NCBI RefSeq assembly: GCF_003725695.1 | Contig: NZ_RJSE01000007.1 | Span: forward strand, 1,130,963-1,194,962 | DNA from: Nocardioides marmoriginsengisoli | GTDB taxonomy: Bacteria > Actinomycetota > Actinomycetes > Propionibacteriales > Nocardioidaceae | DNA: 64,000 bases | Direction: 5' to 3' | Part shown: in pieces, positions 35,557 to 52,838 of the stretch | How positions within the stretch are numbered: position 1 is the stretch's first letter | Layout of the letters: every line of letters starts with the position of its first letter | The notes under the pieces: model-generated | Told to the model about the DNA's origin: nothing | What the model saw: the letters and a program-made list of their open reading frames with translations, nothing else | Databases searched by the model: none | Program-made: the position numbers and the translations under genes

Positions 35557-37061
35557 TTGAACCATATCGTCGCTGGTTGTCGAGATCAGCAACCAAGGGG
35601 CTGGGTGGTTCGCATACAAGACCTGAGTCGGATCGATGCAATCGGGCAAGCGCATTTGGTTCGCAGCGGCCAGGTCGCGCCGCACGACCTGGTGGAGGCG
35701 GCGATCGATCGTATTGCCGCCGTCGACCCTGAGTTGAACTCCATCGTCACGCAGCTGTTTGACAAGGCGCGACGTGAGGCGGGCGCCGTCGACCTCGAAG
35801 CACCGTTTGCCGGTGTTCCTTACGTCCTCAAGGATCACCTGACAGGTTCGGCTGGTGATCCCATGTCCGAAGGACTCGCACCGTTGCGCGAGCAAGGTTG
35901 GGCTCCCGACACGGACAGCTTCTACGTCGAGCGGATGCGTCAAGCGGGCTTTGTCCTGATTGGCAAGAGCAACCTCCCCGAACTTGCCTTGCGAGCAACC
36001 ACGGAGTCGGCGACCCTCGGCCATGCCACAACCCGTGGGATGTCGCCCGATCCCCGGGTGGTTCCAGCGGCGGATCAGGTGCCGCAGTGGCAGCAGGTCT
36101 GGTGCCGGTGGCACACGCGACCGACGCCGGGGGATCGATTCGCATCCCTTCAAGCTTGACCGGGACCGTCGGGTTGAAGCCTTCGCGTGGTCGGGTGTCT
36201 CAAGGTCCCGAGGTCGGGGACGCGTTCCTCAACGGTTCTTGGTACCTGGGGGCGATCACGTCGACTGTCCGTGACGCGGCCGCCGTCCTGGACGCGGTGA
36301 GTGGCTACATGCCCGGCGACCCTTTCTGTGCTCCGCCGCCGGAACGCACCTTCCTGAGCGAGGTGGGTCGTTCATCCGAGCGGCTGCGGATCGGCTTCAT
36401 GCAACGAGCAGCCGATGGCTACGACCCGATTCATTCAGAGGTGCGTGCCGGGACTGTGGCGACCGCCGAACTGCTGGCCGAGATGGGCCACGAGGTCGTC
36501 GAGGCTCATCCGGCCGCGCTCGATCACCAGGACGTTCTCGAAGCATTCATGGCAGTGGTCGGTAGTGGTGTCGGTTGGCTGCTTGATCGCTGGTCCTCAG
36601 TCCTTGGCAGACCCATCGTCGAGAGCGACGTGGAACCCGGGACCTGGATGATGCTGGAGTCCACCCGGTCTGTGACCGGCAGTCAGTTCATCGCGTCAGT
36701 CGAGCGCACGACACGGTTCGGACGCGAAGTCGCCAGTTGGTGGGATGAGTACGACGTGCTCCTGACTCCGACGATGGCTGTGCCGGCGTTCGAGCTCGGA
36801 GCCCTCGACGCTCCGGGCGATCCAGCCGAGGCGACCCGCCGCTCCGTCGCCATCACCGGAGGCTTCACCGTGCCGTTCAACGTGAGTGGCCAACCGGCTA
36901 TCTCGCTTCCGCTCCACCTCACGGCCGCCGGACTGCCGTATGGGTTGCAGTTTGTTGCGCGATACGGCCGCGAAGACGTCCTGTTCCGCCTCGCGGCAGA
37001 ACTCGAGCAGGCGACGCCCTGGGCCCAACGGGTGCCAGCTGTGCACGCTTCACGACGATAG
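35557..37061 (+). pseudogene. Amidase-signature family hydrolase with a single-base frameshift
   Basis: Two overlapping frames together make one amidase of about 490 residues. The first ends its homology at [21 protein letters not shown]. The second resumes at [21 protein letters not shown] with the Gly/Ser-rich amidase signature and the Ser-cisSer-Lys triad region ([11 protein letters not shown]). The break is at about 36018-36030, where one added base (for example a G or C in CGGCC) restores TLGPCHNPWD. The likely start is GTG at 35605 (VVRIQDLSR). Enzymes of this family hydrolyse amides. It lies just before the regulon and carries no operator. Confidence 0.8.
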
Positions 37062-37356: not shown

Positions 37357-37386
37357 TTGCGGACTATTTCTAACAACTGTTAGGAT
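37357..37386 (+). promoter_or_regulatory. Promoter and perfect CTAAC-N4-GTTAG operator of the paaA operon
   Basis: CTAAC (37370-37374), AACT, GTTAG (37379-37383) is a perfect 5-4-5 palindrome seven bases inside the promoter end. TAGGAT (37381-37386), within its right half, is a good -10, with TTGCGG 18 bases upstream. The start codon follows seven bases after the -10, so the transcript may be leaderless. Confidence 0.75.
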
Positions 37387-37392
37387 CACGGC

Positions 37393-38346
37393 ATGGCCGA
37401 GAACCCCGATCTGTCCAAGGCGCCTCAGACCGGCGCAGGAGTGAACGCAGAGCACGAAGCAATCGCAGCGCGCGTGGCGGCTGGCGGCAAGTACGAGCCG
37501 TGGCACGACCTGCCGGACGCCTACCGGGCCGAGGCAGCGCGAATGATGGAGTTCCACATGATGAGTGAGCTCGTCGGCCCGGTGCACGAGTACCGCTGGG
37601 TCCCGCGGGCTCCCAGTTTCGAGGCCAAGCTCATCCTCTCTGCCAAGACTCAGGATGAGGTGGGCCATGGCCTTGCCCTCATTCGCGTGTGCGAGGACCT
37701 CACCGGCAAGACTCGCAGTGAGTACATGGAAGAGATCCTTGAGGGCCCGCCCCGCTTCATGAACATCTTCCACTACCCGTGGGACGACTGGGCGGACCCG
37801 GTTGTCGCCGCATGGCTCGCGGATGGTGCTGAGATCACTCGGCAGACGACTCTGCTCAAGAGCAGCTACGGGCCGTACGCCCGGGCGATGAAGAAGATCG
37901 TGAAGGAAGAAGGGTTCCACCACCAGGCGGGGCGCTACCTGATGCACCGCATGGTCGGCGCGGGCCCGAGCCAGAAGCGTATGGCGCAGGAAGCAGTCAA
38001 CCGGTGGTGGCCCCGGATCCTCTCGATGTTCGGGCCGCGAGCGAGCGCGTCAAAGCACGGTGAAGTTCTCCTGTCGTTTCAGCTGAAGATCGCCGAGAAC
38101 GAGGAGCTGCGCCAGAACTTCTTGAGCACCTTCGTTCCGAAGATCAAGCGGATGGGCCTCGAGATCCCGGATGACGCGGTCGTCCTCGACGAGGAGACCG
38201 GCCTGTGGGGATACACGGAGCCTGATTGGGACGAGTTCAAGGGCCTGCTCCGTGGTGGAAGCCCCTACGGCGAGGAACTGCAGCGATCCCTTCGGAATGC
38301 GCGCCGCGGCAGCCAGTGGTTCATGGACGAAGTCTGGGCGGCCTGA
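37393..38346 (+). CDS. PaaA-like ring-1,2-epoxidase large subunit
   Basis: PaaA is the catalytic diiron subunit of the acyl-CoA epoxidase that attacks aromatic CoA thioesters. The 317-residue product carries the ligand motifs AKTQDEVGHG and KEEGFHHQ, so the diiron site looks intact. It heads the first operon of the regulon, with PaaB one base after its stop codon. PaaC- and PaaD-like genes are 10 kb away. Substrate specificity may differ from phenylacetyl-CoA; the surrounding genes are not a standard paa set. Confidence 0.9.
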   Translation: MAENPDLSKAPQTGAGVNAEHEAIAARVAAGGKYEPWHDLPDAYRAEAARMMEFHMMSELVGPVHEYRWVPRAPSFEAKLILSAKTQDEVGHGLALIRVCEDLTGKTRSEYMEEILEGPPRFMNIFHYPWDDWADPVVAAWLADGAEITRQTTLLKSSYGPYARAMKKIVKEEGFHHQAGRYLMHRMVGAGPSQKRMAQEAVNRWWPRILSMFGPRASASKHGEVLLSFQLKIAENEELRQNFLSTFVPKIKRMGLEIPDDAVVLDEETGLWGYTEPDWDEFKGLLRGGSPYGEELQRSLRNARRGSQWFMDEVWAA

Positions 38347-38347
38347 G

Positions 38348-38608
38348 ATGGCTGATCGCGTCTACGAGGTCTTCCTGTGTCTGAAGGAGGGCGGCGAGTT
38401 CGTTCATGTCGGCGAACTCGAAGCCCCGGAGCCGAAAGCCGCACTTCTCTTCGCGAAGGAGCACTGGCTCCGCCGCGATCCTGCCGTAGGGATCTGGGTC
38501 GTTGACCGAGCCGACGTGCACGCGTCGGAATGGCCGTTCGAGGTCATGGCCAGCGGTGCCGAGAAGCGTTACCGAAAGACACCTGGCCGAAGCGCCCGTG
38601 AGAAGTAG
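38348..38608 (+). CDS. PaaB-like epoxidase subunit
   Basis: An 86-residue protein beginning MADRVYEVFLCLKEGGEFVHVGELEAPEPKAALLFAKEHWLRRDP, the PaaB fold that links PaaA-PaaC units in the epoxidase complex. The ATG at 38348 directly follows the paaA stop. Slightly shorter than typical PaaB (about 95 residues). Confidence 0.9.
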   Translation: MADRVYEVFLCLKEGGEFVHVGELEAPEPKAALLFAKEHWLRRDPAVGIWVVDRADVHASEWPFEVMASGAEKRYRKTPGRSAREK

Positions 38609-38673
38609 AAGCCTGCGGCACTAGCCCGCGGTCCAACGAAGTGCGTTCTATTGCAGGAGAGGGCAAGAACCTG

Positions 38674-39057
38674 ATGAGTAGTTCTACGAGTTCAAGTGGC
38701 GCCGTCTGGCGGTACGACGACTCAGCCTTCCGCCCCACTGGGGGCGGCGGCATGAGTCGCAGGATCTTCACCGGAGACGGTATGTCGATGGCGTTCTGGC
38801 GAATCAAGGGCGGTTCGGGACCGACGCCGTACGGCGGTCACCCGAACAACGAGCAGTTCGGACTGATCGTTGCCGGCCAGCTCGACTTCCGCCTCGGCAG
38901 CGACGAACGAGTCACGCTCGGCCCTGGCGACGTCTACTGGGCACCGACGAACCTGCCGCACGGCGACAGCCAGTTCATCGGTGACCCGGCCCGGAACAAC
39001 GAGGTCTGGATCTTGGATGTCTTCCAGCCTGTGCGAGAGGAGTACCGCAATGGCTGA
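38674..39057 (+). CDS. Cupin-domain protein
   Basis: A single-cupin protein of 127 residues with the two cupin motifs (YGGHPNNEQFGLIVAGQLDF and GPGDVYWAPTNLPHGD), keeping His/Glu metal ligands. The ATG at 38674 has GGAGAGG upstream. It overlaps the HyuA-like gene by eight bases. Cupins act as metal isomerases, dioxygenases or ligand binders; here it is probably tied to the hydantoinase-like step. Confidence 0.8.
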   Translation: MSSSTSSSGAVWRYDDSAFRPTGGGGMSRRIFTGDGMSMAFWRIKGGSGPTPYGGHPNNEQFGLIVAGQLDFRLGSDERVTLGPGDVYWAPTNLPHGDSQFIGDPARNNEVWILDVFQPVREEYRNG

Positions 39058-41131
39058 CTGGCGCCTTGCTGTCGACATCGGCGGCACCTTCACCGACTTC
39101 GTTCTGCTCGATGCCTCCACCGGCCGGGTGGTCGTGGAGAAGAGTCTGTCGACTCCGAGCCGGCCCCTCAACGGGGTGCGCACCGGCCTCACGCAACTCC
39201 TCAAGAAGGCTGGCGTGAGTCCTGAGGAGATCACGGCTCCCATCGTTCACGCGACGACCCTCATCACGAACGCTCTGATCGAAGGCAAGACGGGCAAGGC
39301 GGCGATGGTGACGACCGCCGGCTTCGGCGACACCCTCTCCATCCGGACCGAGCACCGGTACGACATGTACGACCTTCAGATCGAGTTCCCGCCGCCGCCG
39401 ATCCCGAGTGAGCTCACCTTCGAGGTCGACGAGCGGCAGACGGTGGACGGGACGATCCTGCGCGAGCCAAGTGCCGCGGAGCTCGACGATCTGATCGCGA
39501 AGCTCCGCGAGGCCGAGGTCGAGGCTGTGGGCATCTGCTTCCTCCACGGCTACGGGAACGGCGCGAACGAGCGCCTCGTCGCCGACCGGATCACGGCCGA
39601 TCTCGGCATTCCGGTCTGCGTCTCGCACGATGTCGCTCCGCAGATCCGCGAGTACCCGCGCATGGTCACGACGGCCTGCAACGCCGCAACCATGCCGATC
39701 ATCGGGCCCTACCTCGATGAGCTTCAGACCTGGCTCGCAGGCGAGGGCTTCGTCGGCAAGGTGCTCATGATGCTGTCCAACGGCGGGGTCATCGCGGCTG
39801 AGGACGCGAAGCGGTTGCCGATCCGTCTGGTCGAGTCGGGCCCGGCGGCAGGTGCCCTGGCCGGGGCTTGGTACGCCGAACGCCTCGGCGAGGAGAAGCT
39901 GTTGTGCTTCGACATGGGCGGAACGACTGCAAAGTCGTGCCTGATCGAAGGCACTGATCCGGCGTTGACCAACGAGTTCGAAGTTGCTCGTGTCTACCGG
40001 CACAAGAAGGGCTCCGGGTTCCCGGTGTCCGTGCCGTCGGTCGACCTGGTCGAGATCGGTGCTGGTGGCGGAAGCCTGGCACGAGTCGACGACCTCGGTC
40101 TCCTCAAGGTGGGTCCGGAGTCCGCGGGTGCTGAGCCCGGCCCGGCGTCGTACGCCCGTGGAGGTGTGCAGCCCGCGACAACGGATGCCGACCTGCTTCT
40201 CGGGTACCTGGACGCGGGCTACTTCCTCGGTGGCGACATGCCTCTCGATCTCGCGGCCGCGAGTGAAGCGGCACGTAAGGTTGCGGATGCGATCGACAGC
40301 TCGGTCGAAGACACTGCTGCGGGTATCCATGCTGTCGTCAACCAGAACATGGCGGCGGCTGCCCGAATGCACGCCGTCGAACGCGGGGTGGACCTGCGAG
40401 GGGTCCCGCTGATCGCATTCGGAGGCGCTGGCCCGGTGCACGCCTGCGGGGTTGCCGAGCTGCTCGAGACCCAGCGGGTGATCTTCCCGGTGAACGCGTC
40501 GGTGCTCTCCGCCTTCGGGACACTCGTCAGTCCGGTCAGGATCGATCTGGCCCGGTCGCTTGTCGCGGAGCTCAGCGATCACGTGACCGCGGAGCGCGAT
40601 CACCTGCTCGAGGAGATGCGCGCCGAGGGTCGCCAGGTCCTGGCGAGTGCCGGCGTCGAATCGTCGGTCCACTTCCGCTACGGCATGGACGCCAGGTATC
40701 GCGGCCAAGGTAACGAGGTCACGGTCTGGCTGGGCGAGGGCGATGGCTGGCCGGCCTCGACCGCCGACACCGCTGAAGCCTTCGCTGTCGAGTACGAGAA
40801 GATCTACGGGATGCGCATCCCGGATGTTGCGGTGGAAGTGGTTACCTGGCGAATCGCGGCGTGGGCACCGGCACCGAGTGTCGAGAGCGCACGCCTGGCG
40901 CCGATGACCGGCACGCCGGAACCGCACCGCACCCGCGCGGCGAGGTTCGACCGCGGCGCCGATGCTCAGGAGGTTCCCGTCTACAGGCGTGACCTCCTCG
41001 GGGCCGGGGCGACGGTTAACGGGCCGGCATTCATCGAGGAACGTGAGACCACTGCTGTCATTCGGCCCGGATGGCAGGCCACGGTTACCGAGGACGGCGC
41101 AGTTGTCGCCGTGAGGGGGAACGACGCATGA
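39050..41131 (+). CDS. HyuA-type hydantoinase/oxoprolinase/acetone-carboxylase-like subunit
   Basis: A 693-residue ATP-binding subunit with the actin-like DIGGTFTDFVLLD, FDMGGTTAKSCL, GAGGGSLA and FGGAGPVHACGVAEL motifs. Enzymes of this family use ATP to open cyclic amides (N-methylhydantoin, 5-oxoproline) or to carboxylate ketones (acetone, acetophenone). HyuB follows with a four-base overlap. The precise reaction cannot be told; a carboxylase or ring-opening step fits an aromatic or alicyclic catabolic operon. Confidence 0.88.
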   Translation: MADWRLAVDIGGTFTDFVLLDASTGRVVVEKSLSTPSRPLNGVRTGLTQLLKKAGVSPEEITAPIVHATTLITNALIEGKTGKAAMVTTAGFGDTLSIRTEHRYDMYDLQIEFPPPPIPSELTFEVDERQTVDGTILREPSAAELDDLIAKLREAEVEAVGICFLHGYGNGANERLVADRITADLGIPVCVSHDVAPQIREYPRMVTTACNAATMPIIGPYLDELQTWLAGEGFVGKVLMMLSNGGVIAAEDAKRLPIRLVESGPAAGALAGAWYAERLGEEKLLCFDMGGTTAKSCLIEGTDPALTNEFEVARVYRHKKGSGFPVSVPSVDLVEIGAGGGSLARVDDLGLLKVGPESAGAEPGPASYARGGVQPATTDADLLLGYLDAGYFLGGDMPLDLAAASEAARKVADAIDSSVEDTAAGIHAVVNQNMAAAARMHAVERGVDLRGVPLIAFGGAGPVHACGVAELLETQRVIFPVNASVLSAFGTLVSPVRIDLARSLVAELSDHVTAERDHLLEEMRAEGRQVLASAGVESSVHFRYGMDARYRGQGNEVTVWLGEGDGWPASTADTAEAFAVEYEKIYGMRIPDVAVEVVTWRIAAWAPAPSVESARLAPMTGTPEPHRTRAARFDRGADAQEVPVYRRDLLGAGATVNGPAFIEERETTAVIRPGWQATVTEDGAVVAVRGNDA

Positions 41132-42714
41132 CCGAGACCATTGACGCCATCGAGCTCGAAGTGTTGTGGGGAAGCCTCATCAGCACTGTGAACGAACAGG
41201 CTCGCGCACTGCAGCGGGCCGCGTTCAGCCCGATCGTGCGCGAAGCGGGAGACCTGGCGAACGCGCTGTTCGATCGGGACGGCCGCATGGTCGCGCAGGC
41301 GGTGACCGGCACCCCCGGGCACATCAACTCGCTCGCCCGGGCGGCGTCTGCCGTCCTCGCGAAGTATCCGGCGGATCAGCTCGAGCCAGGCGATGTACTC
41401 ATCACCAACGACCCTTACCAGACCGCCGGTCAGCTGCTCGACGTGACGGTCATGAACCCGGTCCACCGGAACGGCGAGGTCATCGCCTTCTTCGGTTCGA
41501 CGATCCATCACACGGATGTCGGCGGCTACGGAATCGGTGCTGGCGCTCGGGATGTCTTCGAAGAGGGAATCTGGATCCCGATCCTGAAGCTCATGAAGAA
41601 GGGCGAACGGAACGACGACGTCTGGAACATGATCCTGTCGAACGTCCGTCAGCCCGAGCACATGGCCGGCGACCTTCACGCTCAGATCGCGTCCGGTGAG
41701 GTCGGCGCGCAGCGCTTGCAGCTGCTCTGCGACTCGCGCGGGATGGATGACATCCAGGAACTCGCCGACGAGATCATTCGGCGCTCCGAGGAAGCGACCC
41801 GTCGTTCGATCAGGGCACTGCCGGGCGGGACCTACCGTGCGCACTCGATCTTGGACCTCGCGGACGGTTCGGAGATCGACATCCACGTCGCAATGACCGT
41901 CGATCCCGACAAGGGAGAGATCCTGGTCGACTACGAAGGGTCGAGCGGCGCAAGCCCGGCAGGCATCAACGTGGTGAAGAACTACACCCATGCCTACAGC
42001 ACGTTCACCATCCGAAGCGTTCTCAACCCGGAGATCCCGAACAACCACGGCAGTCTCGCGCCCATCCGGGTGGAAGCACCCGAGGGCTCGATCGTCAATG
42101 CAGTCTCGCCTTCTCCGTGCACGGCCCGGCACGTCGTCGGCATGTTCCTGCCGATGCCGCTCCTCGCCGCGCTCTCCGAGGTCGTTCCCGATGCCGTGCT
42201 GGCCGAAGGTGCCGGTGCGGTGTGGACGATGCAGGTCAGCGGCACTTATGACGACGGGTCGCCGTTCATCACGGCGATGTTCACCTACGCCGGCGGCGTG
42301 GGTGCGCGCGCCACCAAGACGGGCCTGCACGCTACGTCTTACCCGACTGGCGTCTCGGCCGTTCCGCTGGAGGTGGTAGAGTCCTCAGCCCCGATCCGGT
42401 TCCTGCGCAAGGAGCTTCGTCCTGGGTCTGGTGGTTCGGGCAGTGCGGAAGGCGGCATGGGACAGACGATCGAGTTCACCGTCGACACGACGCGGCCGTG
42501 GCAGCTCAACGCCGTGACGAGCCGGATGAAGCACCCGCCCAAGGGCTTGTTCGGCGGCGGATCAGCGGATCCAGGACGATTCCTGGTCAACGGGGAGCCC
42601 GTACGCACGCAGTCCCGAATCACGCTCCAGCCCGGAGACGTCGTTCGCCTCGAGCTTCCTGGCGGAGGCGGGTACGGGGCGAAGGGCACGGTTCCGGAGT
42701 TCGAGCAGGTGTGA
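41128..42714 (+). CDS. HyuB-type hydantoinase/oxoprolinase-like subunit
   Basis: The 528-residue partner of HyuA: ELEVLWGSLISTVNEQARALQRAAFSPIVREAGD at the start, TNDPYQTAGQLLDV, FFGSTIHHTDVGGYG, NVVKNYTHAYSTF and the C-terminal LPGGGGYG are family landmarks. ATG overlaps the hyuA stop (ATGA) and the ligase GTG overlaps its own stop (GTGA), so the three are coupled. A third small acetone-carboxylase gamma subunit is not seen; the cupin may take a helper role (inference). Confidence 0.88.
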   Translation: MTETIDAIELEVLWGSLISTVNEQARALQRAAFSPIVREAGDLANALFDRDGRMVAQAVTGTPGHINSLARAASAVLAKYPADQLEPGDVLITNDPYQTAGQLLDVTVMNPVHRNGEVIAFFGSTIHHTDVGGYGIGAGARDVFEEGIWIPILKLMKKGERNDDVWNMILSNVRQPEHMAGDLHAQIASGEVGAQRLQLLCDSRGMDDIQELADEIIRRSEEATRRSIRALPGGTYRAHSILDLADGSEIDIHVAMTVDPDKGEILVDYEGSSGASPAGINVVKNYTHAYSTFTIRSVLNPEIPNNHGSLAPIRVEAPEGSIVNAVSPSPCTARHVVGMFLPMPLLAALSEVVPDAVLAEGAGAVWTMQVSGTYDDGSPFITAMFTYAGGVGARATKTGLHATSYPTGVSAVPLEVVESSAPIRFLRKELRPGSGGSGSAEGGMGQTIEFTVDTTRPWQLNAVTSRMKHPPKGLFGGGSADPGRFLVNGEPVRTQSRITLQPGDVVRLELPGGGGYGAKGTVPEFEQV

Positions 42715-44216
42715 AGCTCACCCTCGACCTTCGGTGGCGCCAGGCAGTCGCTGCCCGTCCGGACTCTCCCTTCTTGATCTTCGAGGGTCCGGACGGAGCA
42801 GTGTCGACGTGGACGTACGCCGAGTTCGACGACCTGGTCTCCGAGGTCGCAGGCGGTCTGGTCGAACAGGGGTTGCGGCGAGGTTCGTCGGTGCACCTTG
42901 CGTTGAGCAACGGCCCGGCCTTCATTGCCTGCTGGATCGCCACGGCACGGCTCGGAGCCTGGATCGTTCCAGCCGATCCGGAGGTGACGTCCCACGAGCT
43001 GCGAAGCCAGTTCGCCCGGACACGGCCAGCGGTCGGCGTCTGCTCGACCGCGCGTCGCGACGTGTACCTCGCGGCGGACCCGGAGATGCCGGTGCTGTGC
43101 GTCGACGACGCAGACGTGGTTCTTGATGGCTTGCGTGCCGGATCCCCGGATTGGACGCTCCACGAGGTTCCGAACGGGGAGGATCGGGCAGCCCTGATGT
43201 TCACGTCAGGGACGACGTCAGCCCCGAAGGGCGTCGTCATCACCCAGGCGAACTACGCATTCGCCGGGGACGTGATGAGCGCAGCGGCATCGCTTACGCC
43301 CGATGATCGCCAGTTCGTGGTACTTCCGCTGTTCCACGCGAACGCCCAGTACTACTCGTTCGCTGCCGCAATCTCGGTGGGGGCGAGCGTGGCCCTCATG
43401 CACAGGTTCTCGGCCTCCCAGTTCCTCGAGCAGGCAGCACGCCACGCGGTCACTCACGCCAGTCTGTTTGCAGCACCGATGCGCATGATCCTGGCACGGG
43501 CCAATCCAGTTCCTGGACTCCGTCTCCGGCACTGCTGGTACGCGCAGAACCTCACCAGCGCGCAGTACGTCGACTTCGCCGAGCTGGTCGGCTGCTCTCC
43601 CCGTCAGCTGTACGGGATGACGGAGACGATTCCTGCGGTCCTGTCGAACAGGGTCCTTTCGCCGGATCCGATGGCGCTGGGGGAACAGACCCTGGGTTGC
43701 GTCGTCGAGGTCCAGACCGAGAACGGCACACAGGCCGGTCCCGGCGAGGTGGGAGAGCTGGTTGTCGGCGGTGTTCGGGGGGAGACTCTCTTTGCTGAGT
43801 ACCTGGACGATCCCCGCACGACCGAGGAGTCGTTCAGGAACGGGTGGTTCCTCACCGGTGACCTGGCCGCTCGTCGACCCGATGGGCTGATCACGTTCGT
43901 CGGCCGGCGTGGAGATGTGCTCAAGGTCGCCGGTGAGAACGTGTCCGTCGTGGAGGTCGAGACCGTCCTCGCAGAACACCCGTCGGTTCTCGAGGTCGCC
44001 GTCGTGGGGGAGGCCGACCCGATTCGGGACGTAGTCCCCGTCGCACACGTCGTGCGTGCGGGAGACGTCGATGCTGATGAGCTGCTCGCCTGGTGTGCAG
44101 AGCGGCTGGCCAAGTCCAAGCGTCCCCGACGGATCATCTGGGCGGAGTCGCTGCCACGGACGTCAGTGGGCAAGATCCGGCGTTTTGAACTGAACCCACC
44201 GAGGAACGACAACTGA
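42711..44216 (+). CDS. AMP-forming acyl-CoA ligase
   Basis: ANL-superfamily ligase of 501 residues with MFTSGTTSAPKGVV (P-loop), YGMTE, TGDLA and the catalytic Lys motif TSVGKIRR at the end. It starts at GTG overlapping hyuB and ends the paaA operon before a strong terminator. It probably activates a carboxylic acid for the epoxidase or beta-oxidation steps. Confidence 0.9.
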   Translation: MKLTLDLRWRQAVAARPDSPFLIFEGPDGAVSTWTYAEFDDLVSEVAGGLVEQGLRRGSSVHLALSNGPAFIACWIATARLGAWIVPADPEVTSHELRSQFARTRPAVGVCSTARRDVYLAADPEMPVLCVDDADVVLDGLRAGSPDWTLHEVPNGEDRAALMFTSGTTSAPKGVVITQANYAFAGDVMSAAASLTPDDRQFVVLPLFHANAQYYSFAAAISVGASVALMHRFSASQFLEQAARHAVTHASLFAAPMRMILARANPVPGLRLRHCWYAQNLTSAQYVDFAELVGCSPRQLYGMTETIPAVLSNRVLSPDPMALGEQTLGCVVEVQTENGTQAGPGEVGELVVGGVRGETLFAEYLDDPRTTEESFRNGWFLTGDLAARRPDGLITFVGRRGDVLKVAGENVSVVEVETVLAEHPSVLEVAVVGEADPIRDVVPVAHVVRAGDVDADELLAWCAERLAKSKRPRRIIWAESLPRTSVGKIRRFELNPPRNDN

Positions 44217-44295
44217 CTCCTTTCCGCAAGCCCTGCCGTCCCCGGAACGGATGGATGGGCGCAGCTCGTCGAGGGTCTCCCTCCCTCACGAGCAA

Positions 44296-44332
44296 GAAGG
44301 CCTCCGGATCGCCAGGCGATCCGGAGGCCTTC
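44296..44332. terminator. Perfect 18-bp hairpin between convergent operons
   Basis: Arms 44296-44313 and 44315-44332 are exact inverted copies around a single central base (a small loop forms by opening the inner pairs). It lies between the ligase stop and the convergent SDR stop, so it can terminate both operons. Confidence 0.75.
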
Positions 44333-44353
44333 TCTCGTTCGCAGCCGGGGAGG

Positions 44354-45283
44354 TCAGAACCCGAAGGTGTTCCCGAGTTTGAACTCGACGTCAGCGAAGT
44401 GATCTGCATGTGTCGCGAGATCGGCAAGGTTCCACTGACCGTTGCGCTCGATGCCTTCGTGGATGGAGAACGGCTCGAACAGGTGAACCTGACCGCCGAA
44501 GACCAGGAACACCTTTCCGGTGATCCGGCAATCCTTCGATGCGAGGTAGCCGACCATCGGAGACACGTTGGCGGGATCGAGCTCGTCGAACTCGCCCGGC
44601 CGGACATCATCATCCACGCCACTACCGAGACCTTCGGTGAGGCGAGTGCGGGCGGCAGGAGCGATCGCGTTCACCCGGACGCCGTAGCCGGCCAGTTCAT
44701 CGGCGGTGATCATCGTCATCGAGGCGATGCCCATCTTCGCCGCGCCGTAGTTGCTCTGTCCGATCTTGCCGAAGAGCCCGGAGGTGGACGAGGTGTTGAT
44801 GACAGACGCAGCGACGGGACGCCCTGCCTTGGACATGCTGCGCCAGTACTCCGCGGCATGCCGCGTCGGGCAGAAATGTCCCTTGAGATGGACTCGGATG
44901 ACGTCATCCCATTCATCTTCAGACATGTTGGCGAGCATCCGGTCGCGGACGAAGCCCGCGTTGTTCACAAGGATGTCCAGCCCGCCGAACTCGTCGATCG
45001 CCGTCTGCACCATGTCCTTGGCGCCGTCCCAGGAAGCCACGTCATCCGTATTGGCGACTGCTTCGCCACCATTGGCCAGGATCTCGTCGACGACCTGTTG
45101 CGCCGGTGAGCTGTCGTGGCCGCTTCCGTCGCGAGCGCCGCCGAAGTCGTTCACGACGACACGGGCGCCGTGCGCCGCGAGGAACAACGCGTGACAGCGC
45201 CCGATGCCTCGTCCGGCGCCGGTGACGATCGCGGTCCTGCCCAGGAGTCCGAGGTGCGGGCTCGTCTGCTCGTTGATGGTCAT
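44354..45283 (-). CDS. Short-chain dehydrogenase (3-hydroxyacyl-CoA type)
   Basis: A 309-residue SDR with TGAGRGIG, NNAG, Ser in NTSSTSGLFGKIGQ and the NYGAAK active site. Its length, VNDFGG and SGLFGKIGQSNYGAAK are typical of the dehydrogenase domain of multifunctional beta-oxidation enzymes. The ATG at 45283 overlaps the thiolase stop. It probably oxidises a 3-hydroxyacyl-CoA made in this pathway. Confidence 0.88.
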   Translation of the reverse strand: MTINEQTSPHLGLLGRTAIVTGAGRGIGRCHALFLAAHGARVVVNDFGGARDGSGHDSSPAQQVVDEILANGGEAVANTDDVASWDGAKDMVQTAIDEFGGLDILVNNAGFVRDRMLANMSEDEWDDVIRVHLKGHFCPTRHAAEYWRSMSKAGRPVAASVINTSSTSGLFGKIGQSNYGAAKMGIASMTMITADELAGYGVRVNAIAPAARTRLTEGLGSGVDDDVRPGEFDELDPANVSPMVGYLASKDCRITGKVFLVFGGQVHLFEPFSIHEGIERNGQWNLADLATHADHFADVEFKLGNTFGF

Positions 45284-46479
45284 GCGCTCTTCTCCAGGAT
45301 GTGAATGCCGGCCGAAGAACCCAGGCCGATCACGTGTGCGAGGCCGACCCTTGCCCCCTCTATCTGGCGGTCGGCAGCTTCCCCGCGGAGGTGGTGACAG
45401 ATCTCCCAGATGTTGGCGATGCCCGTGGCCGAGATCGGGTGTCCCTTTGACTCCAGGCCGCCAGAGACGTTCACGGGCGTGCTGCCGTCGCGCCAGGTTG
45501 CCCCCGACTCGAAGAACGGGACCGCTTCCCCGGGCGGGCACAGCATCAGGTTCTCGTAGTGGACCAGCTCAGCGGTCGCGAAGCAGTCGTGCAGCTCGAC
45601 CAGATCGAGGTCGCTGGGGGAGACCCCAGCCTGCTCGTAGGCAGTGGCCGCCGCATTGCGCGTGACGGTGCTGATGTCCGGCAGTGCATGGCAGCCTTCG
45701 ACCCAGGGATCCGTGGCCAGCACGGAGGCGCTGATCTTGACCGCCCGGCGCCTCTGGTCCGGGTCGAGCGTGCGAAGGGTTGCGCCGGAGACGACGACCG
45801 CGGCTGCCGCGCCGTCGCAGTTGGCCGAACACATCGACCGCGTGTTGGGGTAGGCCACCATGACGTCGTTCATGATCTCGTCGAGCGTGAACCGCTTGGT
45901 GTAGGCCGCCAGCGGATTCAGGGTGGAATGCGCGTGGTTCTTTTCGCTGATCCGTGCGAACAGCTCGAAGGTGGCACCGGGGTGCCGCGATGTGTACTCC
46001 ATTCCGACCTGGGCGAAGACCCCAGGCATCGTGTCGGTTCCCACCCGACCGTCCAGGCCGGCCACTGCGCCGTGGCGTCCGGACGGAGTCCAGGTGGCGG
46101 GGCCAGCGACGGACTGTCCGCCCACGAGAAGTCCTGCTCCGGCGATCTTCTCGACGCCGACCGCCAGTGCCACGCGGCACTCGCCGGACTTGACAGCCAT
46201 GATGGCGGTCTTCAGAGCAGTTGCGCCCGTCGCGCACGCGTTGGTGACGTTGATGACCGGCACTCCGGTCTGGCCGATCTGCTTCTGCAGGGACTGACCG
46301 AAGTTGTGTTCGCCGAGCATGTTGCCGGCGGCAATGAGTCCGATCTCGCTCAGAGCGATTCCTGCGTCCGACAGGGCCCCGTGCACCGCCTCGGCACCGA
46401 GGTCGCAGACGTCCTTGTCGGGGTGCTTGCCGAACCGCGTCATCGAGATGCCCACGATCCAAGCGTCATCGCTGTTCAT
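45280..46479 (-). CDS. Lipid-transfer type thiolase (SCP-x-like)
   Basis: The 399-residue thiolase-fold protein keeps the nucleophile Cys in VTNACATGATAL, a second Cys in LHDCFATAELVHYENL and His in SKGHPISATG, so real thiolysis is possible. It is paired with an upstream DUF35 protein, the arrangement of side-chain-cleaving Ltp/DUF35 complexes. ATG at 46479 has GGAG six bases upstream. Confidence 0.88.
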   Translation of the reverse strand: MNSDDAWIVGISMTRFGKHPDKDVCDLGAEAVHGALSDAGIALSEIGLIAAGNMLGEHNFGQSLQKQIGQTGVPVINVTNACATGATALKTAIMAVKSGECRVALAVGVEKIAGAGLLVGGQSVAGPATWTPSGRHGAVAGLDGRVGTDTMPGVFAQVGMEYTSRHPGATFELFARISEKNHAHSTLNPLAAYTKRFTLDEIMNDVMVAYPNTRSMCSANCDGAAAAVVVSGATLRTLDPDQRRRAVKISASVLATDPWVEGCHALPDISTVTRNAAATAYEQAGVSPSDLDLVELHDCFATAELVHYENLMLCPPGEAVPFFESGATWRDGSTPVNVSGGLESKGHPISATGIANIWEICHHLRGEAADRQIEGARVGLAHVIGLGSSAGIHILEKSA

Positions 46480-46924
46480 TCGCCACTCCATCCGTCTTGT
46501 AGGGCGCAAAGCCGAAGCCAATGGCGGTCGTGCCTTGGTCATCCGTCCCGACCGGAAAGGTCACCAGCCGGACCGGAGCGCGCAGCTCGATCTGGGTCGG
46601 GTCGAACCCGGCATCGACCAGGTTGGTCCGGACCCAGGTGCCGCCGCAGTCGACGACCGCAGCGACGTAGGGGACCTCAAGACCGGGAGCAGCGACGTGA
46701 ACGACGGTGAACGACACCAGTTCGCCGACATCCGGCAGCGGACTGCGGCGGAACTCCGTAGCACTGCACGCGGCGCAGGCGTTCCTGCGATCGACAAAGC
46801 GAGCGCCACAGTTCGTGCACTCGTTCGCCACGAGTCTCGCCGGCGGCCCGAGTTCGAGGTAATTGACGTATGGGATCGTCTTGCGATCCAGATCTGTGCC
46901 TTCCACGGTGTGTGACGCTAGCAC
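46466..46924 (-). CDS. DUF35 OB-fold zinc-ribbon protein
   Basis: A 152-residue partner protein with a zinc ribbon (Cys36, Cys39, Cys50, Cys53) followed by an OB fold. Such proteins form complexes with thiolase-like enzymes or enoyl-CoA hydratases in steroid side-chain degradation. It starts at GTG (46924, or a later GTG at 46906) close behind a half-conserved operator, with no ribosome site, so it may be leaderless. Confidence 0.85.
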   Translation of the reverse strand: MLASHTVEGTDLDRKTIPYVNYLELGPPARLVANECTNCGARFVDRRNACAACSATEFRRSPLPDVGELVSFTVVHVAAPGLEVPYVAAVVDCGGTWVRTNLVDAGFDPTQIELRAPVRLVTFPVGTDDQGTTAIGFGFAPYKTDGVANEQR

Positions 46925-46927
46925 AGA

Positions 46928-46944
46928 TTTCTAACGATTGGCCG
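46928..46944 (-). promoter_or_regulatory. Degenerate regulon operator before the DUF35/thiolase/SDR operon
   Basis: CTAAC-GATT-GGCCG at 46931-46944 keeps one half of the CTAAC-N4-GTTAG palindrome. Read on the minus strand, GTTAGAAA gives the TAGAAA -10-like box seen in other copies, just before the start codon. Confidence 0.45.
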
Positions 46945-46968
46945 AAAAACTTTGACGCGTAGTTTGAA

Positions 46969-47967
46969 TCAGAGGTCCTGGGCGAGCTTGAGGAAATCGA
47001 GGGGGATCTGCGGATCCCACCATGCAACGAACGGGTCTCTTTCGACCTTCCTGCGATCGTGCTTGAGGATGAGCGCGGTCATCGCGGCAGCCTTGAACTG
47101 ACTGAGGGCTACGAACCACCCCGCATGATCAGTGACTCCGCCGCCACATGCCGCGTAGTGGCGGAGCATCTCGGTTCGCGACGGCATTCCGACGTCCTCT
47201 CGCACGGAATGAGGCTGTTGGCTCGCATCGGAGCTCATCAGCAGCCACCCGAGGTCGATGCGCGGGTCGCCGATAGTCCAGGTCTCCCAATCCAGGAGGG
47301 CGGTCACCCTTCCTCCCTCGCAAAGCATGTTTCCCAGCCGGAAATCGCCGTGCACCAGCGTGGGCTCGATGTCGGCCGGCATCTGGTCAAGCAGGCGATC
47401 AGCCACCTCGACCGACCCATGTGCCAGGTCTGGCGGGGCTGTGGCGAACAGCGCGCGCCACCGGTTGACCTCGGCCGCAAGCGTCTGGACTGGTTCGCTG
47501 CCGAGGGCTGATCGCTTCCAGGGGAACTCGTGCATCTGAGCCAGGAGTTCGATCGCCGCCAGCGTGCGTTGGCGCACGATCCGTTGGCTCGGGACATCGT
47601 CGGCCGCACCGTGAGTCAAGGGCTCGATGCATTCGCCAGACTCCTTCGTGACCACGAGGACTGGTGGCTCGTCCGGAGGTGTGCCCGCGTCCTCGAAAAG
47701 GACTGCGGGCGTCGGCACCGGGCTGGACTCAAGAGCGCGCATTACGCGTCCCTGCCGCAAGACGTCGCGATTCCGCGTCGGGGGCAGGCCCGGCGGGGCG
47801 ATCTTCACGACGACTGGCGTCGAGGTCTGATCCGACAAAGCGAGCTGGGCTGCGTAGGTCAGGCTCGAAGCACCGCCGTGCATCCGGACGACGCCGTCGA
47901 CTCGAGCCGCGGCTCCGGCGGCGCGCTGGACGCGTTCGTGCACCCAGACTTCGTTGACTGTCGCCAC
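46969..47967 (-). CDS. APH/ACAD10-like phosphotransferase
   Basis: A 332-residue kinase-fold protein with the catalytic loop VHGDFRLGNML and the metal-binding DWETWTIGDPRIDLGW. The layout resembles the kinase domain of ACAD10/ACAD11, which phosphorylates 4-hydroxyacyl-CoA in mammals, more than an antibiotic kinase. GTG at 47967 has GAGGAG seven bases upstream. With CoA ligases and an acyl-CoA dehydrogenase in the regulon, a 4-hydroxyacyl-CoA role is an inference worth considering. Confidence 0.8.
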   Translation of the reverse strand: MATVNEVWVHERVQRAAGAAARVDGVVRMHGGASSLTYAAQLALSDQTSTPVVVKIAPPGLPPTRNRDVLRQGRVMRALESSPVPTPAVLFEDAGTPPDEPPVLVVTKESGECIEPLTHGAADDVPSQRIVRQRTLAAIELLAQMHEFPWKRSALGSEPVQTLAAEVNRWRALFATAPPDLAHGSVEVADRLLDQMPADIEPTLVHGDFRLGNMLCEGGRVTALLDWETWTIGDPRIDLGWLLMSSDASQQPHSVREDVGMPSRTEMLRHYAACGGGVTDHAGWFVALSQFKAAAMTALILKHDRRKVERDPFVAWWDPQIPLDFLKLAQDL

Positions 47968-47998
47968 AGATCTGCTCCTCGGTGGGTACGTGCTCGTT

Positions 47999-48012
47999 CT
48001 AACAAGTGTTCG
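47999..48012 (-). promoter_or_regulatory. Near-palindromic regulon operator before the kinase gene
   Basis: CTAAC-AAGT-GTTCG differs at two bases from the palindrome. On the minus strand its GTTAG half continues as TAGAAC, a possible -10, about 30 bases before the kinase GTG. Confidence 0.55.
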
Positions 48013-48086
48013 CACGGTCGTCTGCGTGTACGTCGTGAACGCTACAACGCCGGTTGACTTGCGACTATAGAGACACTACCTTGATT

Positions 48087-48100
48087 CTAACAGTCGTTAT
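48087..48100. promoter_or_regulatory. Regulon operator before the paaC operon
   Basis: CTAAC-AGTC-GTTAT has one mismatch to the palindrome and lies 13 to 31 bases before the alternative starts of the PaaC-like gene. On the minus strand it contains TAGAAT, so it may also serve the divergent kinase gene. Confidence 0.6.
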
Positions 48101-48112
48101 TTTTCTCGATGG

Positions 48113-48841
48113 GTGGGAACGTTGGACTCAATGACATCGGACGGTCGCGCCGGAGCGATCAAGCTGGCGGACGACGAGTTCATGGTCGGGCACATCCTTA
48201 CGTCGCTCGCTGCGTGGGGGCCTGAGCTCGAGGTGAACCTCGTGCTGTCCTCGGTCGGGCAAGAGGAGCTCGGACACGCACGCCTGTTCTACTCGTACGT
48301 GTTCGGCGAGGAAGCCGAAGACACCGACCACGCCCTCTACGATCGGCCTGCAGGCGAGTTCAAGTCCTGCGGCCTGGCTGAGTGGTATGCCGACGGTTGG
48401 GCGGAACTCGTGGTCAAGCAGTTCCTTTACGACACAGGCGACGCAGTGCGGATGCCGATCTTCGCAGACGCAGGACTGGACGCCGGTCTGGTCGGGCGAG
48501 TCGAGGCGGAAGAACTCTTCCAGCGCGACTTCTGGACGTACTGGTGCGAACGGATCGCCCTGGCCGGCGGCCAGTCGCTGAAGCACCTCCAGCGGTCGTT
48601 CGAAGTGCTCTGGCCGCTCGCGCCCGGCATCTTCCAGGTCGACGGATCATCTGTCGAGTTTCGCGCAGCGCTCGAGGCCGGTTACCAGGCCTGGGAATCC
48701 GAAACGCGGACCAAGGCCGCCGGCTGGGGTATCGAGCTTCCCGCGAACCCGCTCGGAGGAGAGGGCGCGGGCCCGGGGCACCGAGCCCGGGTTCTTGACG
48801 AGATCCGATCGGTCCGGGAACTGGCCCCTGGGCGGTGGTGA
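48113..48841 (+). CDS. PaaC-like epoxidase subunit
   Basis: A 242-residue ferritin-fold protein with GQEELGHARLF and DNxxDxx-type helical spacing typical of PaaC, the structural partner of PaaA. GTG at 48113 is the frame start and ATG at 48131 (MTSDGRAG) an alternative; neither has a strong ribosome site. It is coupled to the PaaD-like gene (TGATG) and begins the operon that also encodes the TetR regulator. Confidence 0.88.
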   Translation: MGTLDSMTSDGRAGAIKLADDEFMVGHILTSLAAWGPELEVNLVLSSVGQEELGHARLFYSYVFGEEAEDTDHALYDRPAGEFKSCGLAEWYADGWAELVVKQFLYDTGDAVRMPIFADAGLDAGLVGRVEAEELFQRDFWTYWCERIALAGGQSLKHLQRSFEVLWPLAPGIFQVDGSSVEFRAALEAGYQAWESETRTKAAGWGIELPANPLGGEGAGPGHRARVLDEIRSVRELAPGRW

Positions 48842-49488
48842 TGATGGCCGACTCAGCGCGAGGACATCCCGCATCGTACGGGGCCGCCGATCTAGCGAGG
48901 CTGACCGCGACGGTCGAGGCGGCGGTGCGCGCGGTCGAGGATCCTGAGCTTCCGGTGTCCATCGGTGAGATGGGGATGGTGGGCGAGGTGTCGATCAGCT
49001 CGGCACCGTCGGACAAGTCCGGTCTGGTCTACGACGTGCGCGTCACGCTCAAGCCGACATTCTCTGGATGCCCTGCGCTCTTCCTCATCGAGGCGGACGT
49101 CCGCAGCGCCGTGACCCATGTGGTCGGTTCTGGCGCGAACCTGTCGCTGAGCTGGGACCGGACCACCGTCTGGCAGCCGAAGGAGGTTGCTCCGAGCGGG
49201 CGAGCCAAGCTGAACGCGCACGGCGTCGTTCTGGACGCACCTGGAGAGGCAATGGTCTGCCCGTACTGCGGATCTGCGGACATCGAGATCCTGAGCGAGC
49301 GAGGGGTCGCTCTCTGTCGTCGACTGGCCTTCTGTGCACAGTGCCGGACTTCAGTGGACGTGATGGGCTCAGCGCGCGGCCCGGCCAGCCTTGAACGCTC
49401 CGGGCTCGGGCAAGGCGCGGGCACCGGCAAGGACCTCGGGATGCCCGGTCCGGTACCCCTGCAGCTAACTCAACACCCCCAGTCGTAG
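48841..49488 (+). CDS. PaaD-like MIP18-family protein
   Basis: The product of 215 residues has the MIP18 core (VEDPELPVSIGEMGMVGEV, TFSGCPALFLIEADVR) and a C-terminal Cys set (CPYCGS, LCRR, CAQC) as in PaaD, a factor for iron-sulfur or diiron maturation of the epoxidase system. It is about 50 residues longer than usual, with a Gly/Pro-rich tail. ATG overlaps the paaC stop. Confidence 0.85.
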   Translation: MMADSARGHPASYGAADLARLTATVEAAVRAVEDPELPVSIGEMGMVGEVSISSAPSDKSGLVYDVRVTLKPTFSGCPALFLIEADVRSAVTHVVGSGANLSLSWDRTTVWQPKEVAPSGRAKLNAHGVVLDAPGEAMVCPYCGSADIEILSERGVALCRRLAFCAQCRTSVDVMGSARGPASLERSGLGQGAGTGKDLGMPGPVPLQLTQHPQS

Positions 49489-49571: not shown

Positions 49572-50777
49572 GTGACCGCACGCCCGAGGCAGGCAGTTGT
49601 TGCAGGTGTTGCGGAACACGCGCCTGAGCGAAAGTTCGCAGGCCCCGAGCAGTTCACGGTGGAGCAGTGGGCAGATCTTGCTCGAATGGCACTCGATGAT
49701 GCCGGCCTGGAATCCCAGGACGTCGACGGCCTCGTCTGCTCGACCGACGTGTTCGAGGCAGTCCACATGGTGCCGTCGCTCCTGGCTGAGTACTGCGGGT
49801 GGGATCTGGCTTGCGCAGAGCAGGTCGATCTTGGTGGAGCCAGTGCGGTCGGGATGGTCTGGCGCGCGGCGGCGATGGTCGAGTCCGGTGTCTGCCAAAC
49901 GGTCGTCTGCGCCCTCCCGTTTCGGCCGCGGCCGGCTGCACCCGATGGGGTCGTCGACCTAGGGAATGTCCTCGGACGAGCGGACGACGTCTGGGGCGCG
50001 CCCGCTCCCGAGCATGACTACCCGTACGGCAACCGAGGTCCGACCGCGAGCTTCGCACTCGTCAACTCTCGATACGACCAGCTCTTCACCGGTGGGCCGG
50101 AGGCGCGAGCCAAATTGGTCAGCGACCAGCGCCGGTCGGCCGCGATCACGCCGGGTGCCGTGCATTTCGGGAAACCCATCGCACCGGAAGACGTGCTGGC
50201 CTCCCGGGTCATCGCGCCGCCAATCCGTCTGCTGGAGGTCGTCATGCCTTGTACCGGCGGGGCGGCCATCGTCGTGACGATGCGCGAGCGTGCCCGTTCC
50301 GACGTGCGGCCGGTCAGTGTGGCCGGCTTCGGCGAAGCGGTCTCTTACAAGCTCCCGACGTACGCGCAAGGAGACGTGACGGACATGCCGCTGACAGGAG
50401 CTTCGCGTCGCGCGTTCGAGATGGCGAGGATCACGCCGGCGGAGATCGGCACGGCGCAGCTCTACGACGCGTACGCAATTGCCGTCATCATGTCCCTCGA
50501 GAGCGCGGGATTCTGCCCCAGGGGCGCTGGCAACGACTTCGTCAACGAACGTGACCTCTCCTTCGGCGGGGACTTTCCGTGCAACACGAACGGCGGCCAG
50601 CTCGGGTTTGGCCAGGCCGGCAATGCGGGCGGAATGACACATGTCATCGAGGCCGTCCGCCAGATTCAGGGCCGAGCGGGCGACCGGCAGTCAGATGGAG
50701 TGGACAGCGCGTTCGTCAGCGGCTCCGGAGGCAGCATGGCCGCCCAGGGCGCGCTCATCTTGAGGGGGGACGCATGA
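49572..50777 (+). CDS. Ltp-type thiolase-fold protein lacking the nucleophilic Cys
   Basis: The 401-residue protein has the thiolase fold of lipid-transfer/aldolase proteins. Where thiolases have the nucleophile Cys, it reads QVDLGGASAVGMVW, and the C-terminal block is NTNGGQLGFGQAGNAGGM without the GHP His. Relatives such as Ltp2 work as retro-aldolases together with a DUF35 protein. The following DUF35 gene overlaps by four bases, so the pair probably cleaves a 3-hydroxyacyl-CoA or tertiary alcohol adduct (inference). Confidence 0.85.
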   Translation: MTARPRQAVVAGVAEHAPERKFAGPEQFTVEQWADLARMALDDAGLESQDVDGLVCSTDVFEAVHMVPSLLAEYCGWDLACAEQVDLGGASAVGMVWRAAAMVESGVCQTVVCALPFRPRPAAPDGVVDLGNVLGRADDVWGAPAPEHDYPYGNRGPTASFALVNSRYDQLFTGGPEARAKLVSDQRRSAAITPGAVHFGKPIAPEDVLASRVIAPPIRLLEVVMPCTGGAAIVVTMRERARSDVRPVSVAGFGEAVSYKLPTYAQGDVTDMPLTGASRRAFEMARITPAEIGTAQLYDAYAIAVIMSLESAGFCPRGAGNDFVNERDLSFGGDFPCNTNGGQLGFGQAGNAGGMTHVIEAVRQIQGRAGDRQSDGVDSAFVSGSGGSMAAQGALILRGDA

Positions 50778-51859: not shown

Positions 51860-51876
51860 CGAACAAGCGTTAGTAT
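51860..51876 (+). promoter_or_regulatory. Regulon operator before the SDR/acyl-CoA dehydrogenase operon
   Basis: CGAAC-AAGC-GTTAG (51860-51873) has one mismatch to the palindrome. TAGTAT (51871-51876) overlaps its right half as a likely -10. A matching -35 is not clear. Confidence 0.65.
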
Positions 51877-52741: not shown

Positions 52742-52838
52742 TTCGAGTCGGCGGGCGTCGAGGTCCTAACCCAGCGCCGGCACATGCCACTTGCAGCCCG
52801 CGCGACCGGGTACGTCACGAACGTCGAGAGGAACGCAG

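Follow-up and report, generated by a model that had tools for sequence, protein, structure and literature searches.

A divergent PaaABCD-like gene set, split over two units behind a shared palindrome and lacking PaaE, in Nocardioides marmoriginsengisoli

The window analysed here, a stretch of 64,000 nucleotides from the genome of the actinomycete Nocardioides marmoriginsengisoli (contig NZ_RJSE01000007.1, below C2, positions 1,130,963 to 1,194,962 of the forward strand), carries genes for homologues of the PaaA, PaaB, PaaC and PaaD components of phenylacetyl-CoA epoxidase. They lie in an island that is flanked by an integrase within the window (33379-34437) and by an IS3-type transposase beyond it (L008:1838-2725, read from its translation), and that extends into the stretch downstream of the window (L007). 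The four genes are the following (window coordinates).

37393 to 38346, plus strand: PaaA-like catalytic diiron subunit, known ligands conserved (TIGR02156, 289.2 bits, barely passing the curated cut-off of 280)
38348 to 38608, plus strand: PaaB-like bridging subunit (Pfam PaaB 55.9 bits, above cut-off; TIGR02157 54.5 bits, below its cut-off of 85.45)
48113 to 48841, plus strand: PaaC-like structural subunit, which keeps E52 and H55 (Pfam PaaA_PaaC 88.5 bits, over cut-off; TIGR02158 76.6 bits, below its cut-off of 133.35)
48835 to 49488, plus strand: PaaD-like protein with zinc ribbon (Pfam FeS_assembly_P and Zn_ribbon_PaaD above cut-off; TIGR02159 80.7 bits, below its cut-off of 108.15)

As PaaB, PaaC and PaaD fall under the NCBI curated cut-offs, PaaA alone passes by those models; against the Pfam model of the PaaA_PaaC superfamily (PF05138, gathering cut-off 28.5) the PaaA-like protein scores 212.4 bits, the PaaC-like protein 88.5 and a third, PaaC-like protein downstream of the window 43.3, so that all three pass. 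The pairs PaaA/PaaB (37393-38608) and PaaC/PaaD (48113-49488) are 9.5 kb apart, in agreement with the original prediction, made from the letters of this DNA, that the genes are split over two operons. The first unit runs in a single direction from 37393 to 44216 and comprises PaaA, PaaB, a cupin, HyuA, HyuB and an acyl-CoA ligase. The second begins at 48113 with PaaC and PaaD and continues with a thiolase-like protein and its DUF35 partner and with a TetR regulator; between the two halves, the opposite strand carries a short-chain dehydrogenase/reductase (SDR), another thiolase/DUF35 pair and a phosphotransferase. Such a split is rare: PaaC lies on the same strand and at most 4 kb downstream in 136 of the 139 comparison PaaA loci with enough flanking sequence (nine more with a short flank were set aside), and in the available part of an earlier survey paaA, B, C and D share one operon in 25 of 25 cases (PMC2653477).

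The two halves are linked by a candidate operator. A perfect palindrome, CTAACAnnTGTTAG, occupies 37370-37383 and begins 23 bp before the start of PaaA; a copy with two mismatches at 48087 begins 26 bp before the start of PaaC, and one with a single mismatch at 47999 stands at the beginning of the divergent operon. The sites in the window, together with the candidate regulator, are as follows.

37370 to 37383, no strand: operator CTAACAACTGTTAG, perfect palindrome, before paaA
47999 to 48012, no strand: operator, one mismatch, where the divergent operon starts, within the called reading frame
48087 to 48100, no strand: operator, two mismatches, before paaC
51860 to 51873, no strand: operator, two mismatches, before the second SDR gene
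54137 to 54150, no strand: operator, one mismatch, before the second CoA ligase gene
56921 to 56934, no strand: operator, two mismatches, before the P450 gene
63630 to 63643, no strand: operator, one mismatch, before a substrate-binding protein gene (63691), after which KorA and KorB follow beyond the window
51182 to 51850, plus strand: TetR-family regulator, candidate reader of the operator (Pfam TetR_N; on visual inspection no other TetR was recognised in the island)

Across the 4.46 Mb of the genome, seven sites differ from the pattern by no more than one mismatch, all within 40.5 kb of the same contig (C2:1168332-1208822), and the reversed control pattern has none. Allowing two mismatches, the window and the next 35 kb contain 11 sites, all within 37370-80242 in joined coordinates and none in the left 33 kb of the window, against 0.12 on average and never more than one in 60 Markov-shuffled 50-kb islands, counts for which the pattern was derived from the same sites that were later counted. 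At three mismatches the count within the window is not significant (nine found; at least nine in 12 of 100 shuffles). Nine of the 11 sites begin 23-72 bp ahead of a gene start, and the other two (47999 and 70994) fall just inside reading frames as called; the operators downstream of the window include those at 70860, between an SDR and a second P450, at 77847, before a VOC protein (named by eye), and at 80242, before the ferredoxin gene fdxA. At up to two mismatches the palindrome was not found in 19 kb around a canonical paa operon on another contig of the genome (C14; see below). The palindrome is thus specific to the island and stands ahead of several of its units. The original prediction that both halves share an operator therefore holds, with a perfect copy before one and a two-mismatch copy before the other, and because this island-restricted element precedes both, PaaA/PaaB and PaaC/PaaD most likely belong to one regulon. 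On the basis of its position, the TetR protein at 51182-51850 is likely to be the regulator that reads it.

The island PaaA holds an intact set of the known active-site residues. The available text of the structural study of the Escherichia coli enzyme (PMC4498308) gives as diiron ligands of PaaA Glu42, Glu72, His75, Asp126, Glu155 and His158, as lysine bridge Lys68/Glu49 and as the residue that orients the phenyl ring Phe108. By alignment, the equivalents in the island PaaA are E59, E89, H92, D144, E173 and H176 for the ligands, K85/E66 for the bridge and F126 for the substrate-orienting phenylalanine, and all of these columns are invariant in the seven aligned PaaA sequences. Two further positions differ: the door residue Lys103 of E. 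coli PaaA aligns with Arg121, and from the ring-orienting phenylalanine on the island protein reads FHY where Klebsiella and the canonical PaaA of the same genome have FNY. The PaaC-like protein has a glutamate and a histidine (E52 and H55) at the positions of leucine and glutamine in the PaaCs of Klebsiella and of the canonical operon, and glutamine at the position of the second histidine of the other PaaCs counted; in the third PaaC-like protein fewer of these residues remain. A single-sequence AlphaFold model of the PaaC-like protein had a mean predicted local distance difference test score of 35.7 and was not used. A link between the PaaC helix motif and the loss of PaaE was set aside, as too few rows with E and H were usable (0 of 2 with PaaE).

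These observations bear on whether the island set might be a broken-up relic, that is, a former operon torn apart within the island whose function was lost. The splitting of a normally contiguous operon would be expected of such a relic, as would the frameshifts in an amidase and a crotonase of the same island. Nevertheless, none of the four reading frames of PaaA-D is interrupted, the active-site residues of PaaA are conserved, and each half keeps an operator that begins 23-26 bp ahead of its start codon, and we regard decay of the set as very improbable.

The genome also encodes a canonical paaABCDE set. Five genes match PF05138, three in the island region and two in an operon on C14 (L006:8517-11964), in which reading frames for PaaA to PaaE follow one another in order, its PaaB and PaaD being assigned through alignment with annotated ones. 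The PaaE of this operon (C14:328522) scores 347 bits against TIGR02160, below a strict cut-off of 420.8 that none of 14 control genomes attained; the other matches are at C2:1513393 (355 bits), at C12:30833 on a further contig (209 bits) and at six weaker places. In this search no PaaE match was found in the island, the nearest strong one lying about 0.3 Mb away on the same contig, which bears out the statement of the original prediction that the reductase is absent from the locus. No gene passes the PaaK or PaaZ model anywhere in the genome (best scores 24 and 112 bits), and hence the canonical operon, too, stands without a recognised PaaK or PaaZ.

In a maximum-likelihood tree of 56 rows, repeated without a fragmentary Rhodococcus ruber row, and with Thermus and two haloarchaeal paralogues as outgroup, the island PaaA falls outside the other bacterial PaaAs; in the second tree it lies outside 49 bacterial rows with support 90/80, and in the first it pairs with the R. 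ruber fragment (87/61), a joining of two long branches. An approximately unbiased (AU) test disfavours its union with a 19-row clade of Klebsiella, Paracoccus, actinobacterial and the genome's own canonical sequences (p = 0.031, modest, with the clade chosen after the first tree had been seen).

Searches for closer relatives recovered none: no PaaA found exceeds 46% identity to the island PaaA, and the six aligned with it are 37-41% identical. In a phylum sample, 17 of 396 genomes had a match at E <= 1e-70, its own included, the best other PaaA at 46%, and in a class sample four of 394 genomes had one at E <= 1e-72, its own included, the others at 43% or less. Among 341 genomes of the family a match at E <= 1e-72 occurs in its own genome only, with none closer in the 340 others, and in 18 of 24 genomes of the genus there are matches at E <= 1e-40, all of which, save the island PaaA itself, are 37-41% identical, like ordinary PaaA. 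A scan of genome contigs by exact 8-residue patterns, which could miss relatives, had a best identity of 45% among the 80 of 129 confirmed loci that were kept; viral contigs held no close relative, and 204 plasmid records gave a best of 43%. For the PaaC-like protein, relatives in an order sample of 293 genomes reach at most 31%, save the third PaaC-like protein of the same genome at 34%; a two-row profile in the phylum sample of 396 scored 75.5 bits at best outside the genome against 420 for the island protein itself, and plasmid relatives are at most 36% identical over part of the length.

One alternative that this evidence addresses is that the set is a second, horizontally acquired isozyme for phenylacetyl-CoA or a close arylacetyl-CoA. 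Its PaaA does pass the curated model, if barely (289.2 against 280 bits), and retains the phenylalanine that orients the phenyl ring; yet its low identity to every PaaA found, the AU result against the Klebsiella/Paracoccus/actinobacterial clade, the scores of PaaB, C and D below curated cut-offs, and the remainder of the island (P450s, a KstD-like protein, HyuAB, DUF35/thiolase proteins), which is not a phenylacetate pathway, make an isozyme improbable. Of the two readings, an oxygenase specialised for a different CoA thioester has the better support. This part of the original prediction gains from the discovery of paaABCDE elsewhere and from the position of PaaA outside the Klebsiella-type clade, as opposed to a sole paa operon with a PaaA inside it, and is weakened by the long branch and by the post hoc naming of the clade.

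The absence of PaaE is by itself no sign of a new electron source, as loci with PaaABC(D) and no PaaE are common: in 33 of the 87 comparison PaaC loci no protein of the PaaE kind occurs within 8 kb, or within the flanking sequence available (more than 4 kb downstream for the 33), as judged with a profile built from four PaaEs and after PaaE-less loci with a short flank had been dropped. In its available text, a recent survey terms such sets "partial multicomponent" configurations and counts all 32 archaeal cases among them (PMC13186573). A PaaE lies nearby in 0 of 16 loci with FHY-type PaaA against 52 of 86 with FNY-type (65 reading frames with a short flank were dropped, and four of the 106 usable rows are neither, two having M and two no motif found), and the Fisher value of 2.6e-6 overstates this contrast, as relatives were counted separately.

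In place of PaaE the island offers several candidate donors. The operator at 80242 is followed, 60 bp after its start, by FdxA (L007:16302-16622), a bacterial-type ferredoxin of 106 residues with Pfam Fer4, whose gene has a few bases in common with a small one that matches no Pfam family and is EthD-like by eye. Behind these come the gene of the third PaaC-like protein (L007:17197-18198), which scores 43.3 bits against Pfam and shares 30-35% identity with the first according to the alignment used, and a transporter of the major facilitator superfamily. At L007:879-3862 the island encodes KorAB, a 2-oxoacid:ferredoxin oxidoreductase; two KorA genes exceed the cut-off genome-wide, so that with the other at C2:523334 the island KorA is a second copy. 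The operator at 63630 begins 61 bp before the gene of a transporter binding protein, after which KorA and KorB follow, and a FAD ferredoxin reductase and a small single-cluster ferredoxin come after the second P450.

The association of KorAB and FdxA with an oxygenase recurs in both clusters from other actinobacteria that were seen. On an Embleya plasmid (L150:6351-18396) the order is Rieske oxygenase, SnoaL-like protein, aldolase (by eye), KorA, KorB, FdxA, HyuA, HyuB and CoA ligase, where all genes from KorA to the CoA ligase have island homologues (KorA 62%, KorB 62%, FdxA 66% over 53 residues, HyuA 70%, HyuB 79%, CoA ligase 55% identical), and a Rhodococcus plasmid holds KorA (59%), KorB (62%), FdxA (45%) and a Rieske oxygenase in one cluster. 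Judging from this genomic association, FdxA and KorAB are the most likely candidates for the electron supply of the island oxygenase. As to the original prediction that electrons come from a different source, a candidate can now be named behind the same operator, while the missing PaaE, its starting point, is uninformative alone and a PaaE could act in trans.

Indeed, the same type of enzyme, acting on a different CoA thioester, might draw its electrons from a PaaE-like reductase outside the island, either the C14 PaaE or the protein at C2:1513393. Full-length TIGR02160 matches exist at both (347 and 355 bits) and a weaker one on C12 (209), all below 420.8; furthermore, PaaE is the weakest binder in the canonical complex according to the portion of the structural study available (PMC4498308), and in the accessible part of the older survey paaE is separated from the rest of the paa genes in 4 of the 23 cases (PMC2653477). 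None of the PaaE-like genes, however, stands at an island operator site, none of the 16 usable FHY-type loci has a PaaE nearby, and the island carries ferredoxins and KorAB of its own, which leaves supply in trans a somewhat unlikely arrangement.

The known systems closest to the island set share some features with it and differ in others. It shares with the phenylacetyl-CoA 1,2-epoxidase PaaABC(D)E of Klebsiella and E. coli and of its own C14 operon the PaaA-D homologues, the diiron ligands and the lysine bridge, and differs in its two units 9.5 kb apart, its lack of PaaE, its own operator and its PaaB, C and D below cut-offs. Haloarchaeal PaaABCD sets (Natribaculum) are alike in having an FHY-type PaaA, no PaaE-kind flavin reductase in the 8-9 kb fetched, and E and H in the PaaC helix where Klebsiella and the canonical copy have L and Q; in Haloferax only a 55-residue protein is annotated "PaaE". 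These sets are, however, archaeal and contiguous, their PaaA is 37-40% identical to that of the island, and a sister relation between the two is neither shown nor rejected. The PaaABCD-like cluster on a plasmid of R. ruber Y14 (L182:5998-8241) likewise has no PaaE in the 12.4 kb seen, a TetR nearby and a CoA ligase behind, and its PaaD is 39% identical to the island protein, the best of six compared; in contrast to the island, the genes there are contiguous, PaaA is fragmentary and adjoins an IS3 element, and the annotation of the stretch seen includes no HyuAB, KorAB or FdxA. BoxAB benzoyl-CoA epoxidase resembles the island set in principle, by the description available in PMC4498308, in that a diiron enzyme epoxidises the ring of a CoA thioester with a separate electron donor; BoxB, as stated there, needs no structural subunit, unlike PaaABC. 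The Embleya and Rhodococcus clusters each combine homologues of KorAB and FdxA (45-66%) with an oxygenase, which is in their case of the Rieske type and not PaaABC. We found no published description of such a system in a literature search outside which most subscription journals lay.

The remaining annotated features from the left edge of the island to the end of the window are given below.

33379 to 34437, plus strand: tyrosine recombinase, possible left island edge (NCBIfam models, below cut-off; edge from position only)
35557 to 37061, plus strand: amidase, frameshifted near 36020 (N-terminal part 35557-36159; C-terminal part 35898-37061 in another frame)
38668 to 39057, plus strand: cupin protein (Pfam Cupin_2)
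39047 to 41131, plus strand: HyuA, hydantoinase/oxoprolinase family subunit (caprolactamase alpha model, below cut-off; 70% to Embleya)
41128 to 42714, plus strand: HyuB subunit (caprolactamase beta model, below cut-off; 79% to Embleya)
42711 to 44216, plus strand: acyl-CoA ligase 1 (ligase models, below cut-offs)
44354 to 45283, minus strand: SDR oxidoreductase (PRK07791 over cut-off)
45280 to 46542, minus strand: thiolase-like (lipid-transfer) protein 1 (70% to a Mycobacterium branderi plasmid)
46466 to 46924, minus strand: OB-fold/DUF35 partner of thiolase 1 (BbsA-like, weak)
46969 to 48015, minus strand: APH-family phosphotransferase (Pfam APH)
49572 to 50777, plus strand: thiolase-like protein 2
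50768 to 51154, plus strand: OB-fold/DUF35 (ChsH2-like) partner (Pfam zf-ChsH2)
51932 to 52741, plus strand: SDR oxidoreductase 2 (PRK07231 over cut-off)
52791 to 54128, plus strand: acyl-CoA dehydrogenase
54184 to 55773, plus strand: acyl-CoA ligase 2
55805 to 56611, plus strand: enoyl-CoA hydratase, frameshifted near 56070 (named by eye; two frames)
56959 to 58170, plus strand: cytochrome P450 (tblastn to annotated P450s, best 44%)
58167 to 59579, plus strand: aldehyde dehydrogenase (models below cut-off)
59628 to 60704, plus strand: zinc alcohol dehydrogenase (N,N-dimethyl-4-nitrosoaniline-dependent alcohol dehydrogenase model, below cut-off)
60755 to 60946, plus strand: small [3Fe-4S]-type ferredoxin, 63 residues (cysteine motif; reading frame)
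60913 to 63584, plus strand: ABC transporter ATPase and permease

The amidase is considered frameshifted or misassembled, since the N- and C-terminal parts of one protein meet near 36020 in overlapping frames. The G+C content of the island is 65.0%, that of the canonical paa region 71.5% and that of positions 1-33000, left of the integrase, 62.7%; the island was probably acquired horizontally, and as the 33 kb to its left are even lower in G+C, the low-G+C and probably foreign block is wider than the island. Within that left part, at 15526-20824, lie genes by eye for an aldehyde dehydrogenase, a P450, a [3Fe-4S]-type ferredoxin, a ferredoxin reductase and an alcohol dehydrogenase, without the palindrome.

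The original prediction had also held that paaG-, paaZ- and paaK-like sets are absent. No gene passes the PaaK or PaaZ model, as noted, but genes that might stand in for PaaK, G, Z and J do occur in the island. Its inventory includes SDRs, an aldehyde dehydrogenase and a MaoC protein, together with two thiolase-like proteins, two CoA ligases and two genes of the crotonase type, one of which is frameshifted. From gene content, an alicyclic compound or one of terpenoid/steroid-like character is suggested by the P450s, alcohol and aldehyde dehydrogenases, CoA ligases, KstD-like protein, thiolase/DUF35 proteins and MaoC, and HyuAB with the broken amidase may contribute a lactam or amide step. The KstD-like flavoprotein (L007:9825-11645) is 54-56% identical to proteins of Rhodococcus megaplasmids, which also carry a homologue of the thiolase at 59%. 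Attempts to identify the substrate by synteny, with HyuB, the thiolase, the KstD-like protein and the P450, turned up clusters on plasmids of Embleya, Rhodococcus and Mycobacterium, none of recognised substrate, and were given up.

Taken together, we propose, with slightly better than even confidence, that the island encodes a second PaaABCD-type diiron oxygenase for a CoA thioester other than phenylacetyl-CoA, supplied with electrons by FdxA and KorAB and switched by the TetR protein. In such a system the TetR protein would bind the palindrome and be released by an acyl-CoA of the pathway. The substrate would be oxidised by the P450 and the alcohol and aldehyde dehydrogenases and then turned into a CoA thioester, into which the PaaA/B/C complex, matured by PaaD, would insert one oxygen atom, with electrons from FdxA, reduced by KorAB, instead of the NADPH-flavin-FeS reductase PaaE; the product would then be broken down by the crotonase, MaoC, SDR, acyl-CoA dehydrogenase and thiolase/DUF35 proteins. 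A more specific version, which we offer tentatively, is a 2-oxoacid-driven PaaABC in which KorAB reduces FdxA and FdxA in turn PaaA, the third PaaC-like protein acts as an alternative scaffold or as a docking subunit that replaces PaaE, and one TetR switch controls the whole.

Several points weigh against the proposal as a whole, besides the inflated contrast between FHY and FNY loci. Both the substrate and the electron donor are read from genomic association, and the phylogenetic result is moderate because the PaaA branch is long, with support of 90/80 and a post hoc p = 0.031 that are modest; a union with the haloarchaeal sequences is not rejected by the AU test (p = 0.124). On the side of the electron supply, KorAB is assumed to be on the transcript from 63630, behind the transporter gene; the [3Fe-4S]-type ferredoxins and the FAD ferredoxin reductase of the island could be the real donors, and FdxA and KorAB could instead serve the P450s or other enzymes of the island. 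The Embleya and Rhodococcus clusters were found via other island genes and so are not an unbiased sample. Finally, given the frameshifted amidase and crotonase, some of the pathway may be in decay or wrongly assembled.

The proposed second oxygenase would have consequences for how paa genes are read in genomes. In the text available of a recent study, PaaA and PaaC are put forward as genome markers for phenylacetate degradation (PMC13186573); the presence of a second, divergent and PaaE-less set in N. marmoriginsengisoli suggests that these markers can report another pathway. Should the supply by ferredoxin prove true, it would further hint at how the numerous PaaABC(D) loci without PaaE (33 of the 87 compared) obtain their electrons.

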